DNA of 55,636 nt, from the NCBI RefSeq assembly GCF_000157995.1, contig NZ_GG657557.1:268576-324211 (forward strand), read 5' to 3'. The notes beneath the pieces were generated by a model. That model was not told the DNA's origin. It did no database searches and was given only the letters and a program-made list of their open reading frames with translations. Shown piece by piece: positions 1,346 to 53,790 of this stretch; the stretch's first letter is position 1, and each line of letters starts with the position of its first letter. The translations under genes were made by a program, and so were the position numbers. This stretch comes from Holdemania filiformis DSM 12042 (GTDB taxonomy: Bacteria > Bacillota_I > Bacilli_A > Erysipelotrichales > Erysipelotrichaceae).

Positions 1346-3701
1346 GAAGCAGATCGAAGCGGCCATTGCCCGCGCCAACCGCACGGACAAAAAAGGAAAA
1401 TCGGCACAGGACAGTATCCCCTATGAACGAATGTGGCCGGACGGGATCTGCCGCGTATCGGACAGCCACTACACAAAGACCATTCAGTTTCAGGACATCA
1501 ACTATCAGCTCTCCCAAAATGAAGATAAGACCGCGATCTTTGAGGGCTGGTGTGATTTCCTCAATTATTTCGACAGCTCGATTCACTTCCAGCTGTCTTT
1601 TTTGAACCTTGCGGCATCGGAGGAGACCTTTGCCAACTCCATTTCCATTCCGCCCCAGGGGGATGCCTTTGACAGTATCCGTGAGGAATATACCACGATG
1701 CTGCAAAATCAGCTGGTCAGAGGCAACAACGGTCTCATCAAGACCAAATACCTGACCTTTGGTATCAACGCTGACAGCATCAAAGCCGCCAAGCCCCGTC
1801 TGGAGCGTATTGAGACCGATATACTCAATAACTTCAAGCGTCTTGGTGTAGCCGCCAGAACATTGGACGGTAAGGAAAGGCTTTCCCAGCTTCATGCGGT
1901 ATTCCACATGGATGAACAGCTCCCGTTTCAGTTTGAATGGGACTGGCTGGCTCCTTCCGGCCTGTCCACGAAAGATTTTATTGCACCAAGCTCCTTTGAG
2001 TTCCGCACCGGCAAGCAGTTCCGTATGGGCAAGAAATACGGGGCTGTTTCTTTTTTGCAGATTTTAGCCCCAGAGCTGAATGACCGTCTGCTGGCTGATT
2101 TTCTGGATATGGAAAGCTCGCTCATTGTGAGTATGCACATTCAGTCGGTGGATCAGGTGAAAGCCATCAAAACGGTAAAGCGTAAGATTACCGATCTGGA
2201 CCGCAGTAAGATTGAGGAACAGAAAAAAGCAGTCCGCGCCGGATACGACATGGACATCATTCCTTCTGACCTTGCCACCTACGGCAGCGAAGCGAAAAAG
2301 CTGTTGCAGGATTTGCAGAGCCGAAACGAGAGAATGTTCCTGGTCTCCTTTTTGGTGCTGAACACAGCGGACACCCCCCGTCAGCTTGGCAACAACATCT
2401 TTCAGGCAGGCTCTATTGCCCAGAAGTATAACTGCCAGCTGACCAGACTGGACTTCCAGCAGGAAGAAGGGCTGATGAGCTGTCTGCCCCTGGGACTCAA
2501 TCAGATCGAGATTCAGCGAGGGCTGACCACCAGTTCTACGGCTATCTTTGTACCATTCACCACACAGGAATTATTCCAGAACGGCAAGGAAGCCCTGTAC
2601 TACGGCATCAATGCCCTGTCCAACAACCTCATCATGGTGGATAGAAAGCTGCTGAAAAACCCCAACGGCTTGATTTTGGGTACGCCGGGTTCCGGTAAGT
2701 CTTTCAGCGCCAAGCGTGAGATTGCCAACTGCTTTTTGCTTACCAATGATGATGTCATCATCTGTGACCCGGAAGCGGAGTACGCACCTCTGGTGGATCG
2801 TCTGCATGGGCAGGTCATCAAGATCTCGCCTACCTCAACCAACTACATCAATCCGATGGATCTGAACCTGGACTATTCGGATGATGAAAGCCCGCTGTCC
2901 CTCAAGTCTGACTTTATCCTCAGCTTGTGTGAGCTGATCGTGGGCGGTAAGGACGGATTGCAGCCGGTGCAGAAAACCATCATCGACCGTTGTGTGCGTC
3001 TGGTCTATCAGACCTACCTCAATGACCCGCGCCCGGAGAATATGCCCATACTGGAGGACCTATATAACCTGCTCCGTTCACAGGAGGAAAAGGAAGCCCA
3101 GTATATCGCCACGGCCCTTGAAATCTATGTAACCGGCTCCCTCAATGTGTTCAATCACCAGAGCAATGTGGACATCAATAACCGCATTGTCTGCTATGAC
3201 ATTAAGGAGCTGGGCAAGCAACTCAAGAAAATCGGTATGTTGGTGGTCCAGGATCAGGTGTGGAACCGCGTTACCATTAACCGCGCTGCCCACAAGTCCA
3301 CCCGTTATTACATCGACGAGATGCACCTGCTTTTGAAGGAGGAGCAGACCGCCGCTTATACGGTGGAAATCTGGAAGCGATTCCGCAAATGGGGCGGTAT
3401 TCCGACAGGTATCACCCAGAATGTCAAAGACCTTTTGAGCAGCCGCGAGGTGGAGAACATCTTTGAAAACTCCGACTTCGTGTATATGCTCAACCAGGCA
3501 GGCGGAGACCGTCAGATTCTCGCCAAGCAGCTGGGCATTTCCACGCACCAGCTTAGCTATGTGACCCACTCCGGTGAGGGCGAGGGCCTGCTGTTCTATG
3601 GCTCCACCATCCTGCCCTTCGTTGACCACTTCCCGAAGAATACTGAGCTTTACCGCATTATGACCACCAAACCCCAGGAACTGAAAAAGGAGGATGAATA
3701 A
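1236..3701 (+). CDS. virB4: VirB4-type conjugation ATPase
   Basis: Motor ATPase of the mating-pair channel (VirB4/TraE/CagE family), 821 residues, the usual length. The Walker A motif GTPGSGKS is near residues 482-489 and the Walker B segment YYIDEMHLLL near 690-699. An N-terminal partner-binding domain precedes them, and QAGGDRQILAKQLGIS belongs to the conserved C-terminal part. The first start is only three bases from aaggagg (1226-1232) and the next ATG, 1254, is 21 bases away, so 1236 is kept with some doubt. It is expected to work at the cytoplasmic membrane with PrgI and the coupling protein encoded left of the window. Confidence 0.95.
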   Translation: MTLFTAMKSWLRRLLGKPEEKTVHPVKTKKKLSRADKKQIEAAIARANRTDKKGKSAQDSIPYERMWPDGICRVSDSHYTKTIQFQDINYQLSQNEDKTAIFEGWCDFLNYFDSSIHFQLSFLNLAASEETFANSISIPPQGDAFDSIREEYTTMLQNQLVRGNNGLIKTKYLTFGINADSIKAAKPRLERIETDILNNFKRLGVAARTLDGKERLSQLHAVFHMDEQLPFQFEWDWLAPSGLSTKDFIAPSSFEFRTGKQFRMGKKYGAVSFLQILAPELNDRLLADFLDMESSLIVSMHIQSVDQVKAIKTVKRKITDLDRSKIEEQKKAVRAGYDMDIIPSDLATYGSEAKKLLQDLQSRNERMFLVSFLVLNTADTPRQLGNNIFQAGSIAQKYNCQLTRLDFQQEEGLMSCLPLGLNQIEIQRGLTTSSTAIFVPFTTQELFQNGKEALYYGINALSNNLIMVDRKLLKNPNGLILGTPGSGKSFSAKREIANCFLLTNDDVIICDPEAEYAPLVDRLHGQVIKISPTSTNYINPMDLNLDYSDDESPLSLKSDFILSLCELIVGGKDGLQPVQKTIIDRCVRLVYQTYLNDPRPENMPILEDLYNLLRSQEEKEAQYIATALEIYVTGSLNVFNHQSNVDINNRIVCYDIKELGKQLKKIGMLVVQDQVWNRVTINRAAHKSTRYYIDEMHLLLKEEQTAAYTVEIWKRFRKWGGIPTGITQNVKDLLSSREVENIFENSDFVYMLNQAGGDRQILAKQLGISTHQLSYVTHSGEGEGLLFYGSTILPFVDHFPKNTELYRIMTTKPQELKKEDE

Positions 3702-49402: not shown

Positions 49403-49483
49403 CCCTACTCCCTTCCGACTTCCGACCTGCTATACTTGTTATAGTGGCAGGAATGCGCTAAATTGAATACTTTTCTACATAAG

Positions 49484-49507
49484 GCCCGGCATTAACCGGG
49501 CTTTTTT
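49484..49507 (+). terminator. Intrinsic terminator in the 49379-49678 intergenic region
   Basis: Stem gcccgg/ccgggc (49484-49489 and 49496-49501) with a six-T run. The surrounding 300-base interval has no gene. It holds the 11-bp repeats at its left, a TATACT -10-like element near 49431 flanked by an imperfect inverted repeat, this terminator, and a ccggcc-rich leader ahead of the sigma-like gene. Confidence 0.7.
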
Positions 49508-49678
49508 CATTCCTGCTGCAATATGGCGGCAGGAACATGGCTGGAGGTGAAAACACTTCCGGCCTTTTTCTTTGCCCGGTATTAGGAGGCCGGTATGCGC
49601 TGGGAGGCGTACATAGCAAAATATCCATGACACCGTTCAAATTCGCTGACTACCAAGAATTTGAACGGAGGAAAGGAT

Positions 49679-50227
49679 ATGACGAGAGTATTCATTTGGA
49701 AAAATAACAGCCCACAGGAATGGGAGGAAATCAGTTTTTCAGCGTTCAGTAAGGCACGCCGCAATGGTTGCTTTACTGGGCGCTTTTTTGTTGAAACAGT
49801 CAAAATGTTCCGTGATGAAGATGACCGCATTATCATGGAATGTTCTCGCAAAGATTTTGAAAAATACCAACAGGAGGACCGCCACAGCCGCTATCTCCAG
49901 GAACATGAGAAAAGTCGCTCTATATTCCCGGCTTCTCATGTGGGAGATCGTGACGGCACAGAGGAAGGTTATCAGGATACAGATTTGTTTGTGGATGAAT
50001 CTGTTGATACTGCGGAACAAGCTATTCAGAATTTACTTCTTGAGGATTTACACCAAGCTCTATTGAAACTGAGTCCAGCAGAACGAGATTTTATATTGTC
50101 CTATTATGAAATGAAAATACCAAATGCAACTTGTTTAGCCCAACGATATGGTATTACTCGGCAAGCCGCAGATAAGCGATTGAAAAAAATTGAAGAAAAA
50201 ATAAAAAAGTTGGTTGCGATTTTCTAA
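49679..50227 (+). CDS. Sigma-70 region-4-like regulator
   Basis: A 182-residue protein with the sigma region 4 pattern at the C-terminus: LHQALLKLSPAERDFILSYYEMKIPNATCLAQRYGITRQAADKRLKKIEEKIKKL. The first part (WEEISFSAFSKARRNGCFTGRFFVET) is a small domain seen in ICE-encoded sigma-like proteins. ATG 49679 follows cggaggaaagg. As in Tn916-like elements, it probably turns on excision or transfer genes. Confidence 0.75.
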   Translation: MTRVFIWKNNSPQEWEEISFSAFSKARRNGCFTGRFFVETVKMFRDEDDRIIMECSRKDFEKYQQEDRHSRYLQEHEKSRSIFPASHVGDRDGTEEGYQDTDLFVDESVDTAEQAIQNLLLEDLHQALLKLSPAERDFILSYYEMKIPNATCLAQRYGITRQAADKRLKKIEEKIKKLVAIF

Positions 50228-50714
50228 AAAAGTGGCAGTAGCAAGTGAGAGGGAAATCCTTTCACTTGCACCTTGACAACCTCATATACGAATCATTAAG
50301 TTTGATCCTCTTTGGGCGTAATAGCCGCTACATCAGCGGTATATTTTCTGAGAGCTGCCACTCGCATAACAGGCCAACCCATTTTTGCTGTATAGATGAG
50401 TTTTCGGTTTATCAGAAATATATCAGGCTGGAATACATCGGATGGCATCCGGTCATGGCATAACAAGGAGGAAAGCTCTCTTACAGCCATAGTCCGAGCG
50501 TGATAATAACCGTCGCAGGCCATGGGTAAGACCAAACGAAGTGGAGGTGAAACTCCTGAGAAGCAGGCCAGCCACCTGCGGCTTAATGATTACCCAAATC
50601 CCTGGGGTGTCGTGGACAAGTAAGGGATAAAACAGGCGCTAAATTGAAGGAGACTCTGTAATTTGCAGAGCCTCCTTCTTACATAATCAAATCTCAAAAC
50701 ATAGGAGGATGAAC
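50228..50714 (+). ncRNA. Candidate structured RNA or control region upstream of mazF
   Basis: Nearly 490 bases without a confident gene but with dense pairing. A hairpin GCAAGTGA/TCACTTGC (50241-50269), a hairpin CCGCT/AGCGG (50325-50339), and a three-way junction: closing stem GGGTAA/TTACCC (50524-50529, 50590-50595) around GGAG/CTCC (50543-50556) and GCAGG/CCTGC (50563-50579). The unpaired segments are purine-rich. I do not recognise a known RNA family; an integrase or excisionase DNA control region is an alternative. Confidence 0.45.
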
Positions 50715-51095
50715 ATGAAAGAAGATTGGATTTATAAGCGTGGGGATTTATATTATGCCAATTTGAACCCTTATTTTGGATCAGAGCAAGGCGGCACCCG
50801 TCCTGTCCTGGTTCTTCAAAACAATGTGGGGAATTTTTTCTGCCCCACTTTGATCGTAGCTCCACTCACCAGTAAATGGATTAAGAAAAAGGAGCTGCCC
50901 ACACACTATGCACTGGAGAGCGTTCCAGAGCTTGGACTGAAATCTGTTGTTCTGCTGGAGCAAATTAAAACGATTGATAAAAGGCGTGTTTTATCGTACA
51001 TTGGGCGCGTATCTCGCGAAGAAATGAGAGCGATTGATGATGCTCTGCAAGTTAGTTTAGATATTCATATTCCGGAGGAAATGGAGGCTCCGTAA
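50715..51095 (+). CDS. MazF/PemK family endoribonuclease-like protein
   Basis: A 126-residue MazF-like toxin. The family core is intact: KRGDLYYANLNPYFGSEQGGTRPVLVLQN, the TLIVAPLTSKW strand and LLEQIKTIDKRR. ATG 50715 is used because the taggagg site overlaps the earlier ATG 50709. No MazE-like antitoxin gene is visible on either side. In several ICEs an orphan MazF-like protein sits beside the excisionase genes, where it may be regulatory. Confidence 0.88.
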   Translation: MKEDWIYKRGDLYYANLNPYFGSEQGGTRPVLVLQNNVGNFFCPTLIVAPLTSKWIKKKELPTHYALESVPELGLKSVVLLEQIKTIDKRRVLSYIGRVSREEMRAIDDALQVSLDIHIPEEMEAP

Positions 51096-51125: not shown

Positions 51126-51353
51126 ATGTTTGAAGCAAGAATTGCGGAATTGAACCGCTTTAATGAACAAAATCCTGTCAGCTATGACAAAAGAACCTAT
51201 ACGGTCGATGAGATTCAGGACATTCTGGGTATCAGTCGTCCCACAGCATATAATCTGGTAAAACAGGGTGTATTCCACAGCGTCAGAGTCGGCGGTCATA
51301 TCCGCATTTCCAAAAAGAGCTTTGATGACTGGCTGGATCACGCAGATGAATGA
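51126..51353 (+). CDS. Excisionase-like helix-turn-helix protein
   Basis: A 75-residue DNA-binding protein. The C-terminal MerR/excisionase-type winged HTH (RTYTVDEIQDILGISRPTAYNLVKQGVFHSVRVGGHIRISKKSFDDWL) is complete. Such proteins bend DNA at attachment sites and direct the integrase to excise. It has an aaaggagg site and is followed by a terminator, so it is co-transcribed with the MazF-like gene. Confidence 0.82.
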   Translation: MFEARIAELNRFNEQNPVSYDKRTYTVDEIQDILGISRPTAYNLVKQGVFHSVRVGGHIRISKKSFDDWLDHADE

Positions 51354-51457: not shown

Positions 51458-51895
51458 ATGCAAAAACAAAGAGTAAAGACCAGTATGTCTGTACCAGAGA
51501 TGGGCAAAATGCTTGGGCTTGGTAAAGTAGAATCCTACTGGTTGGTTAAAAAGAACTATTTCAAAACAATTCAAGTGGCCGGACGAATGAGAGTTATGCT
51601 GGATAGCTTTGAAGATTGGTATGCCGGCCAGTTCCACTATAAAAAAGTGGATGGTACACCGCCCGGAGAGAAATGGAGGCATACTACGATGTCAGTTCCG
51701 GAAATGGCGGATCTTTTGGGGCTGAAATCTGGCACAGCTTATGACCTTGTTAAAAGGGGCTATTTTGAGACGACCTTGATTGATCGAAGAATTCGTATCA
51801 TTACCAGCAGTTTTGAAGCCTGGTATCAAAAGCAAACTCATTATGTGAAAATCTCAGAAAGGAGCAATGAAAATGGCATCTATCGTGAAGCGTAA
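51458..51895 (+). CDS. Tandem excisionase-like HTH protein
   Basis: A 145-residue protein with two successive excisionase-type HTH units: MSVPEMGKMLGLGKVESYWLVKKNYFKTIQVAGRMRVML (about 10-48) and MSVPEMADLLGLKSGTAYDLVKRGYFETTLIDRRIRII (about 75-112), each followed by an SFE-x-WY segment. The duplication suggests cooperative binding of two adjacent sites. Binding site gaggagg. Its 3' end overlaps the integrase start by 23 bases. Confidence 0.82.
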   Translation: MQKQRVKTSMSVPEMGKMLGLGKVESYWLVKKNYFKTIQVAGRMRVMLDSFEDWYAGQFHYKKVDGTPPGEKWRHTTMSVPEMADLLGLKSGTAYDLVKRGYFETTLIDRRIRIITSSFEAWYQKQTHYVKISERSNENGIYREA

Positions 51896-53264
51896 AAGCA
51901 AATATTCTGTGGTGTATGATTACACAGATGAAAACGGAAAACGCAGACAGCGTTGGGAAACCTTCAGCACAAATGCAGAAGCAAAAAAACGAAAAAAGCA
52001 AATTGAGTATGAGCAGGACTCTGGAACCTTCTTTATTCCTACGGCAAAGACCCTGAACGATCTGCTCGATGAATATATGTCCATCTATGGTGTAAATACC
52101 TGGGCAATGTCAACATATGAAAGCCGCCGTGGTCTGGCGAGAAACTACATAACTCCTATTATCGGAGATATGTTACTATCCGACATCACTCCAAGGATGA
52201 TGGATAAGTATTACCGTGATCTGCTCTCTGTGAAAACGGTAAGCGTCAACAACCGCAAACCCACAAGCGAATATCTGACCCCGCATACAGTAAGAGAAAT
52301 TCACAAGCTACTTCGCAGTGCCTTTAATCAGGCGGTGCGTTGGGAACTAATCAGCCGTAACCCTGTCCTGAATGCGACACTTCCCAAAGAAGAACATAAA
52401 GAACGGGATATATGGACTGCCGAAACGCTGAGCAAGGCTATGGAAGTCTGTGATGATCCTATCCTCTCCCTTGCCTTAAATCTGGCGTTCTCCTGCTCTT
52501 TACGCATTGGTGAAATGCTGGGCCTTACCTGGGACTGCATTGATATTGCACCACAGAGCATAGAAAATGGTTCAGCTTATATATTCGTCAACAAAGAGCT
52601 GCAACGGGTTACACGAGGTGCATTGGACGATTTGAGCGACAAAGGTGTTATTAAGAAGTTTCCACCTTGCATAGCCAGTACCCATACTGCTCTGGTCCTG
52701 AAAGAGCCTAAAACCAAAACCAGTATTCGCCGCGTGTACCTGCCGAAAACAGTTGCCTATATGCTGGTAGAGAGAAAAAAAGAAATTGATGAGCTGATGG
52801 ATCTGTTTGGAGATGAATACATCGACAATAACCTGGTCTTTTGCTCCAGCAATGGCCGTCCGATGGAAAGCCAGGTGATTAACCGTGCTTTCAATAAACT
52901 TATCAAAGAAAACGGACTGCCTCATGTTGTATTCCATTCTCTCCGTCACTCCAGTATCACCTACAAGCTGAAACTCAATGGTGGCGATATGAAATCCGTC
53001 CAGGGCGACTCTGGTCATGCTCAGGTAAAAATGGTTGCAGATGTCTACTCTCACATCATCGACGAGGATCGCTGCATAAACGCTCAGCGATTGGAGGAAG
53101 CATTTTACTCATCCAAGACTCCTGACCCTGTTGAAGATACAGAGCCTAAAACTGCGGATACTGCCGTCACTGAAAGTGATGAAAGTGATGCAGCGAAGAT
53201 ACTGGAACTGCTTAAAAATCCCGAAACTGCCGCACTGCTCAAGCAGCTGGCAAAAGCTTTATAA
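51873..53264 (+). CDS. int: Tyrosine-type integrase
   Basis: Site-specific recombinase, 463 residues. The N-terminal arm-type DNA-binding segment (VVYDYTDENGKRRQRWETFSTNAEAKKR) precedes a SAM-like core-binding domain (about 55-165). The catalytic residues are Arg211 (LRIGEMLGL), His355-x-x-Arg358 (HSLRHSS), His382 (SGHAQVKM) and nucleophile Tyr392 (VYSHI). It ends 348 bases from the 3' end of tRNA-Arg, the expected position of an integrase beside its attachment site. ATG 51873 gives the best spacing from aaaggag. Confidence 0.95.
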   Translation: MASIVKRKSKYSVVYDYTDENGKRRQRWETFSTNAEAKKRKKQIEYEQDSGTFFIPTAKTLNDLLDEYMSIYGVNTWAMSTYESRRGLARNYITPIIGDMLLSDITPRMMDKYYRDLLSVKTVSVNNRKPTSEYLTPHTVREIHKLLRSAFNQAVRWELISRNPVLNATLPKEEHKERDIWTAETLSKAMEVCDDPILSLALNLAFSCSLRIGEMLGLTWDCIDIAPQSIENGSAYIFVNKELQRVTRGALDDLSDKGVIKKFPPCIASTHTALVLKEPKTKTSIRRVYLPKTVAYMLVERKKEIDELMDLFGDEYIDNNLVFCSSNGRPMESQVINRAFNKLIKENGLPHVVFHSLRHSSITYKLKLNGGDMKSVQGDSGHAQVKMVADVYSHIIDEDRCINAQRLEEAFYSSKTPDPVEDTEPKTADTAVTESDESDAAKILELLKNPETAALLKQLAKAL

Positions 53265-53285
53265 AGTCCCTCCCTCAGAAGAACG

Positions 53286-53308
53286 CCTCTCACTTTGTGA
53301 GAGGTTTT
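53286..53308 (+). terminator. Intrinsic terminator after the integrase gene
   Basis: Perfect 8-bp stem CCTCTCAC/GTGAGAGG (53286-53293, 53297-53304) followed by TTTT. It lies 21 bases after the int stop. Confidence 0.75.
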
Positions 53309-53612: not shown

Positions 53613-53689
53613 TGGCGTCCCTGGCGGGATTCGAACCCACGGCCTTTCGCTTAGGAGGCGAACGCTCTATCCTGCTGAGCTACAGAGAC
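53613..53689 (-). tRNA. tRNA-Arg (anticodon CCT), probable ICE attachment site
   Basis: Complete 77-base tRNA including encoded CCA. The acceptor stem GTCTCTG/CAGGGAC pairs fully (one G-T), the D arm is GCTCAGCAGGATAGAGC, the anticodon loop CTCCTAA has anticodon CCT (53653-53655 on the + strand) and the T arm is GTGGGTTCGAATCCCGC. The 3' end faces the integrase, so the element most likely entered at the tRNA 3' end and left the gene intact. The exact attachment core cannot be set without the left end. Confidence 0.93.
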
Positions 53690-53720: not shown

Positions 53721-53790
53721 TTTCCCCGTAAGGCAGCTGGTAGAGCACAACCTTAGGAGGGCGGTGCTCTATCCAGCTGAGCTACGGAAA
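53721..53790. pseudogene. tRNA-derived long inverted repeat (tRNA relic)
   Basis: Two arms, 53721-53748 and 53764-53790, are inverted copies of a tRNA 5' half; the shared part corresponds to a D arm (AGCTGG-TAGAGCAC). The minus strand begins like tRNA-Arg (TTTCCGTAGCTCAGCTGGAT, then an anticodon-like CTCCTAA) but then turns back into the inverted arm instead of a 3' half. No T arm or matching acceptor 3' strand follows, so it is not a functional tRNA. Confidence 0.6.

Follow-up and report, generated by a model that had tools for sequence, protein, structure and literature searches.

The stretch between a σ-like gene and mazF at positions 50228-50714 (+ strand) of the window, i.e. the 55,636-nucleotide stretch of Holdemania filiformis DSM 12042 DNA that was analysed, matches a covariance model of a canT/pemK-type RNA element, and it is likely that this element, a divergent family member without the PA hairpin, acts as a processive antiterminator, a function that we assign to the window copy by analogy with canT of Tn916. 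The element is homologous to the canT core, its structure covaries, and it shares with canT the polarity and the arrangement of the two ends, the left end of the ICE bearing a strong terminator-like site. The joining of canT with pemK RNA, a canT fold backed by covariation and the PA-less variant in the window are new. The original prediction had placed a new non-coding RNA of the recombination module here: a non-coding, structured control element of this module it is, as the covarying pairs of helix P1 described below argue, but not one of a new kind, its relatives being Tn916 canT and the Rfam pemK RNA.

Upstream of the element lies a gene resembling region 4 of σ70 (49661-50227, +; a weak match below the Pfam cut-off), and two terminator-like hairpins with T tracts (49481-49504 and 49539-49564) are found 5' of this gene. 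Downstream follow a MazF/PemK-like gene (50709-51095, +; PF02452, E 2.9e-32), an excisionase-like HTH_17 gene (51126-51353, +; weak Tn916-Xis match with 15.7 bits against a cut-off of 22.9), a second HTH gene and a tyrosine integrase (51867-53264, +; PF00589, E 5.7e-19). The MazF/PemK-like gene has no evident antitoxin gene adjoining it and recurs directly 3' of the RNA in some of the relatives; it may be a regulator instead of one half of a toxin pair. The claim that the stretch itself holds no gene was borne out: a Pfam search of the two ORFs inside 50228-50714, encoding 72 aa (50245-50463, +) and 79 aa (50296-50535, −), returned zero family matches, and a protein-coding reading of either was rejected on this ground.

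Relatives of the element are numerous. BLAST with the stretch gave matches in 10 of 97 genomes and, near-identical copies aside, most of them cover query positions 249-301 only, i.e. 50476-50528 of the window. From this shared block an exact pattern was taken (AGTCCGAGCGT, 4-11 bases, GTYGCAGGC), which occurs in at least 115 stretches in genome contigs and in 21 in viral contigs. BLAST also identified 27 plasmid and 3 phage records, including pCF10, IPP61 and pMG2200. The copies of pCF10 and IPP61 reside in Tn916-type elements, the IPP61 record carrying Tn916 labels, and that of pMG2200 in a vanB element, which we take to be Tn1549-like; in all three the core is located between σ/HTH genes and xis. 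Near-identical relatives of the window copy exist in Subdoligranulum (97.1%) and CCNA10 (99.7% over 5.6 kb), which may reflect recent transfers. Three loci (L038, L148, L093) were dropped as pattern matches lacking the surrounding structure, judged by eye to be due to chance, and six (L033, L039, L048, L069, L137, L140) were left out of the alignment only, being too near a contig end. Among the remaining 143 loci, all with sufficient flanking sequence, filtering by shared 8-mers left 66 and the removal of L093 then gave 65 non-redundant relatives, which were aligned without structure. A covariance model built with the loop (R1) scores 81.4 bits at 50459-50578 (+), the window sequence itself being among the 65 in the model. 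R1 matches were obtained in 20 of the 296 genomes sampled from the class and in 24 of the 392 sampled from the phylum; the samples overlap, and the counts are lower bounds as the search scores some candidates only.

The conserved core spans 50479-50557 and has many relatives in ICEs of Bacillota, Tn916 among them. Its basis is helix P1, in which 50479-50484, 50487, 50488 and 50489 pair with 50531-50526, 50525, 50524 and 50523. Compensatory changes among homologues, named as the check in the original prediction, are abundant here: across the 65 relatives 98.1% of the cells in P1 are paired and all nine pairs show two-sided changes, so that the check was strongly passed. In the window copy all nine pairs are Watson-Crick, and the U-A pair at column 21 is of a type that no other of the 65 shows there. 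RNAalifold recovers P1 unaided and, as the search pattern fixed the loop only, pairing of the loop flanks is an unbiased test. The distal loop domain of P1, AGTCCGAGCG(T..C)CGTCGCAGGC at 50491-50520, is almost invariant, in part by construction because AGTCCGAGCGT and GTYGCAGGC were fixed in the search; its pairs (helices 2 and 3) scarcely vary and are hence uninformative on covariation.

Two smaller hairpins belong to the same fold. PB (50545-50557, consensus register AGG-TGAAACT-CCT, T-loop-like) comprises three pairs, with 95.2% and 89.2% of cells paired, and changes on both sides at columns 96-122, 106-121 and 107-120. PA (five pairs, 81.3% paired) covaries as well, its alignment being gappy and taking in sequences that may lack PA. 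The window copy contains ACCAAACGAAGT in place of PA, and the conserved AATGATACT block is replaced by GGAAAGC, the block being absent from a few other relatives, too. Overall, 94.0% of cells in the named structure are paired, compared to 75.0% in shuffled alignments (0/500) and at most 43.8% in slid ones, and the covariation amounts to 0.523 versus 0.177 in shuffles and at most 0.124 in slid controls. A further hairpin, P4, is located at 50598-50628, its ATCCCT/AGGGAT stem enclosing the conserved loop GGGGTGTCGTGGACAA (50604-50619). P4 with the loop GGGGNGTCGNGGACAA is present 3' of the core in 14 core-bearing loci, i.e. a subset of relatives in which the stems covary, differing yet still pairing (ATCCCT/AGGGAT, AGCATTTC/GAAATGCT, TTACGCAT/ATGCGTAA); one of the ten distinct forms, L021, pairs just 4 bp by automatic count.

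All pairings named in the original prediction are present in the sequence, as are two further hairpins near the ends of the stretch. The 5' hairpin GCAAGTGAGAGG/CCTTTCACTTGC (50241-50269, +; 12 bp, 92%) is situated directly 3' of the σ-like gene and is unaligned with the relatives; GGAG (50543-50546) and CTCC (50553-50556) are a shifted register of hairpin PB; GCAGG (50563-50567) and CCTGC (50575-50579) form hairpin PC (50563-50579, +), at a place where many relatives, judged by eye, carry a variable hairpin; and the 16-bp hairpin GAAGGAGACTCTGTAA/TTGCAGAGCCTCCTTC 5' of mazF (50646-50678, +) has a weak T tract and is terminator-like at best. From the density of such pairing and the absence of a gene the original prediction had suggested an RNA or a DNA control region. 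The structured RNA stands on the comparative evidence, but the density argument does not: the full 487 nt fold better than shuffles on the + strand (z −3.41, 0/100) and likewise on the − strand (z −2.97, 1/100), whereas the 182-nt core containing the junction does no better than shuffles (z −0.63, 50/200). As the opposite strand folds alike and the core gives no signal, pairing density by itself is little proof, and thermodynamic folding was discarded as an uninformative test. The flanking hairpins may account for a large part of the signal of the whole stretch.

A three-way junction closed by GGGTAA (50524-50529) and TTACCC (50590-50595) had been proposed as the structure of the stretch. By comparison of the relatives it is not the fold of the family, since GGGTAA belongs to the 3' arm of P1, including two bases of its inner part, so that the junction helix (50524-50595, +) competes with P1 for 50524-50529. 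Moreover, the helix is complete (6/6) in only two of eight relatives tested, namely L002 and L152 from the window lineage; in the other six, which likewise bear P4, a TTACCC-type partner pairs 4-5 of 6 bases at best, at varying positions. In single-sequence folding the probability of P1 is about 0.6-0.9 as long as the transcript stops short of TTACCC, whereas the junction form of the window RNA is favoured by 2.7-3.4 kcal/mol once TTACCC is included, and a similar drop of P1 is predicted for 7 of the 65 relatives, the window included. The junction may therefore be either a genuine late state of the window lineage or a prediction error.

The genomic surroundings connect the RNA to the recombination end of mobile elements. 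Of the 87 loci that have 2.5 kb or more of downstream sequence, 80 carry a same-strand recombinase no further than 3 kb 3' of the RNA, 47 of the tyrosine type (matching Int or Xis) and 33 of the serine type, the serine queries having been taken from 15 of the same loci and assigned by eye; in the other seven none was detected within this distance and on this strand. Where a locus extends far enough upstream, a σ-like gene mostly precedes the RNA (101 of 129), mazF follows in 13 of 103, and the gene next to the RNA varies, being xis-int, a serine recombinase or mazF. As near-identical Tn916 copies are among the loci, these counts do not represent independent events. The RNA thus tracks the recombination end of ICEs irrespective of the recombinase type, which would fit a role on the joined circle. 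Some loci, with gene families assigned by eye, are arranged differently: in L043, L089 and L090 the RNA has a divergent HTH repressor-like gene on one side and an integrase gene on the other, with a MobC-like gene coming next in L043 and L089, in L059 it is found ahead of MobC- and relaxase-like genes, and in L084 it lies 171 bases 5' of parA; in these five it would act as a direct operon leader. A generic xis leader attenuator (a GGGCTG/CAGCCCC-TTTT terminator or pairing with the SD, seen by eye in some relatives) was dropped as a candidate as it is missing from others.

The ICE extends over contig positions 258063-322334 (~64.3 kb), the window covering its right end. The putative attR core is the 9-bp sequence CCTTAGGAG (53751-53759), with its attL partner at contig position 258063, outside the window, and was accepted because the joined flanks form tRNA-Arg(CCT); a 13-nt direct repeat, the longest in a first scan, was rejected as its match lies inside the window. 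The ICE carries its own complete tRNA-Arg(CCT) (53613-53689, −; tRNA match), and its insertion site is apparently the anticodon loop of a host tRNA-Arg(CCT), in which case the carried gene would replace the split one. At the left end a terminator-like hairpin with a 20-bp stem (contig 258344-258387) precedes parA (258427), and the parA- and parB-like genes as well as the conjugation genes, identified by eye, share the orientation of the RNA. A second terminator-like hairpin (53285-53305, +), which an antiterminated transcript would need to pass, is located 3' of int. The layout as read from the sequence corresponds to that of Tn916, where the promoter and the antiterminator lie at one end and the terminator and the transfer genes at the other.

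In Tn916 canT (conjugation-associated antitermination) is the orf8-xis region, and according to Wirachman and Grossman (2024; PMC11658703) a 452-bp canT fragment acts in cis and in an orientation-specific manner, providing processive read-through of Tn916 and foreign terminators. There, canT mutants are described as reduced about 100-fold in conjugation with normal excision, and start-codon and stop-codon mutations in orf5 do not impair conjugation, the antisense orf5 protein thus being dispensable; the inactivating canT(S3) exchange is ATA to TGC on the canT strand, within an orf5 Tyr codon, but a 400-nt fragment bearing the S3 exchange kept its activity, and some shorter fragments were active, too (PMC11658703). 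The authors call the interpretation of the canT structure complicated, took it no further and report canT-like sequences in some Tn916-like elements; their paper mentions neither pemK nor Rfam nor Tn1549 (PMC11658703). In the Tn916-type element of pCF10 the orf8-xis gap corresponds to locus positions 2710-3169, and our core starts at 3017. Both Tyr codons of orf5 (2998-3000 and 2992-2994) fall within GATAATGATACT, so that by deduction S3 is placed in this sequence, a conserved block directly 5' of P1 that falls within positions 1-9 of the pemK model. Annotated antisense 'hypothetical proteins' overlie the core in pCF10 (WP_001845478.1) and in the window (50296-50535, −), and they are probably by-products of the RNA, as for orf5.

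The Rfam pemK RNA (RF02913), reportedly described by Weinberg et al. in 2017, matches the same core in the Tn916-type loci L149 and L151 (55.0 bits) and L150 (57.8 bits) and also in other relatives. The model shares the P1 base, PA and PB with the core, and in it the invariant loop domain counts as an insertion, which many members lack. Members are often located 5' of PemK/MazF genes. When loci with the AGTCCGAGCG loop were scanned, 15 of 28 reached the cut-off and 13 stayed below it, among them L002 and L152 of the window lineage. The window copy is likewise not matched at the gathering cut-off of 34.8 bits, and E-value scans of the window with Rfam gave chance-level matches only. RF02913 does detect two further loci in this genome, at 63.4 and 36.7 bits, and R1, trained with the window copy included, recovers all three, another copy reaching 118.2 bits. 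Several loop-less members (L204, L205, L208, L210 and L211) are situated 5' of serine recombinases, xis-int or pemK (by eye), whereas L196, L199, L206, L207 and L213 are elsewhere or ambiguous, so that the ICE-end picture does not fit every RF02913 member. L196, at the same place as L180, is a short pemK RNA 337 bases 5' of an IS110-like transposase frame (by eye), perhaps by chance. Another Rfam family, SQ2397 (RF03532), which is listed as cis-regulating an HTH factor, has matches close to the HTH regulator gene in the Tn916-type elements L149 (1543-1772), L151 (1543-1772) and L003. Our literature searches found no paper linking pemK RNA with canT.

Based on these findings we propose that a rightward transcript, presumed to run from the σ-like genes towards mazF, xis and int, would include the RNA. 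Excision would join the ends of the ICE and the transcript could then continue over attP, past the left-end terminator and into parA/parB and the conjugation genes, meeting on the circle the terminator-like sites after int and before parA. By analogy with Tn916 canT, the nascent RNA would fold P1 and the invariant loop and stay with RNA polymerase, a contact that we suppose for the window RNA as well, rendering the polymerase resistant to terminators. The conjugation genes would thus be expressed from the circle only. Since canT mutants of Tn916 excise normally, what the RNA most likely affects is not recombination but how the circularised element is transcribed as a whole. We further suggest, tentatively and at somewhat less than an even chance, that the pemK RNA family as a whole consists of RNA-only processive antiterminators of the canT class, which tie transfer-gene expression to excision in many Bacillota ICEs and some mobilisable elements, and that the window variant in addition switches off via the late GGGTAA/TTACCC helix, which would dismantle the antiterminator fold.

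Single-sequence folding counts against antitermination by the window copy, as P1 is disfavoured in the full-length RNA. So do the absence of PA and of the AATGATACT block, the lack of an Rfam match and the seven of 87 loci in which no recombinase was detected downstream, and the activity of the S3-bearing 400-nt fragment and of some shorter ones in Tn916 blurs which part of canT is required. Other readings therefore have to be weighed. The Rfam type Cis-reg and the label pemK, the occurrence of mazF downstream in some loci and the mutual exclusion of junction and P1, with the junction predicted to win once TTACCC is transcribed, which is switch-like, speak for a local cis-regulator, i.e. a riboswitch or attenuator, of the next gene, be it mazF/pemK or xis. 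We regard this as unlikely, for the next gene is not constant among the loci, Tn916 canT is processive, acts over heterologous terminators and leaves excision unchanged, and the switch-like loss of P1 is confined to few relatives. As both PA and the AATGATACT block, the S3 site in Tn916, are missing, the window copy could be weakened or decayed; its R1 score, well below that of another copy in the same genome, and its escape from Rfam would also suit an inactive relic of a canT RNA. This is quite improbable given that the nine P1 pairs are intact with unusual types, the unique U-A pair needing paired changes, that P4 is conserved, and that near-identical copies exist in other species, though by recent transfer perhaps.

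Two readings dispense with the RNA altogether. The original prediction had named a DNA control region as an alternative, and a recombination site with Int/Xis arm sites or DNA hairpins might be expected where the element is found, adjoining xis-int. Its chances are very slight: the covariation includes many G-U wobbles, e.g. 17 U-G pairs at each of columns 23 and 26, the element is also present beside unrelated serine recombinases, and excision is normal in the canT mutants of Tn916. It is just as improbable that the 79-aa ORF on the minus strand (50535-50296) is an antisense protein gene; orf5 of Tn916 does lie antisense over the same core, but the ORF finds no match in Pfam, and the start-codon and stop-codon mutations in orf5 left conjugation normal in the Tn916 study. 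Antitermination on the circularised element remains the reading that we prefer. It joins pemK RNA, so far filed as a cis-regulator, to a characterised antiterminator, which provides a testable function for every pemK RNA, and it gives canT, for which structure prediction had been uninformative to its discoverers, a structure backed by covariation. Moreover, it suggests that antitermination, which has so far been shown to couple conjugation to excision in Tn916, commonly does so in ICEs, among them some that move vancomycin and tetracycline resistance.

Compared to Tn916 canT, the window RNA is located in the same way between σ/HTH genes and the xis/int end with the same gene polarity, P1 and the invariant loop are common to both, and both elements have a terminator-like stem at the left end before the first transfer genes, in the window ICE by pattern match. 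Unlike Tn916 canT, the window copy contains neither the PA hairpin nor the AATGATACT block, but has P4 and the competing GGGTAA/TTACCC helix, and mazF is inserted between the RNA and xis. With RF02913 the window copy shares the P1 base and the PB hairpin, whereas the PA hairpin between them is absent. The proposed working, in which RNA polymerase is made to disregard terminators by the RNA that it is producing, is the same as for HK022 put, B. subtilis EAR and pLS20 conAn2. Of these, pLS20 conAn2 likewise serves conjugation operons, but requires the protein ConAn1, whereas for canT no such protein is known; the likeness concerns the proposed mode of working.
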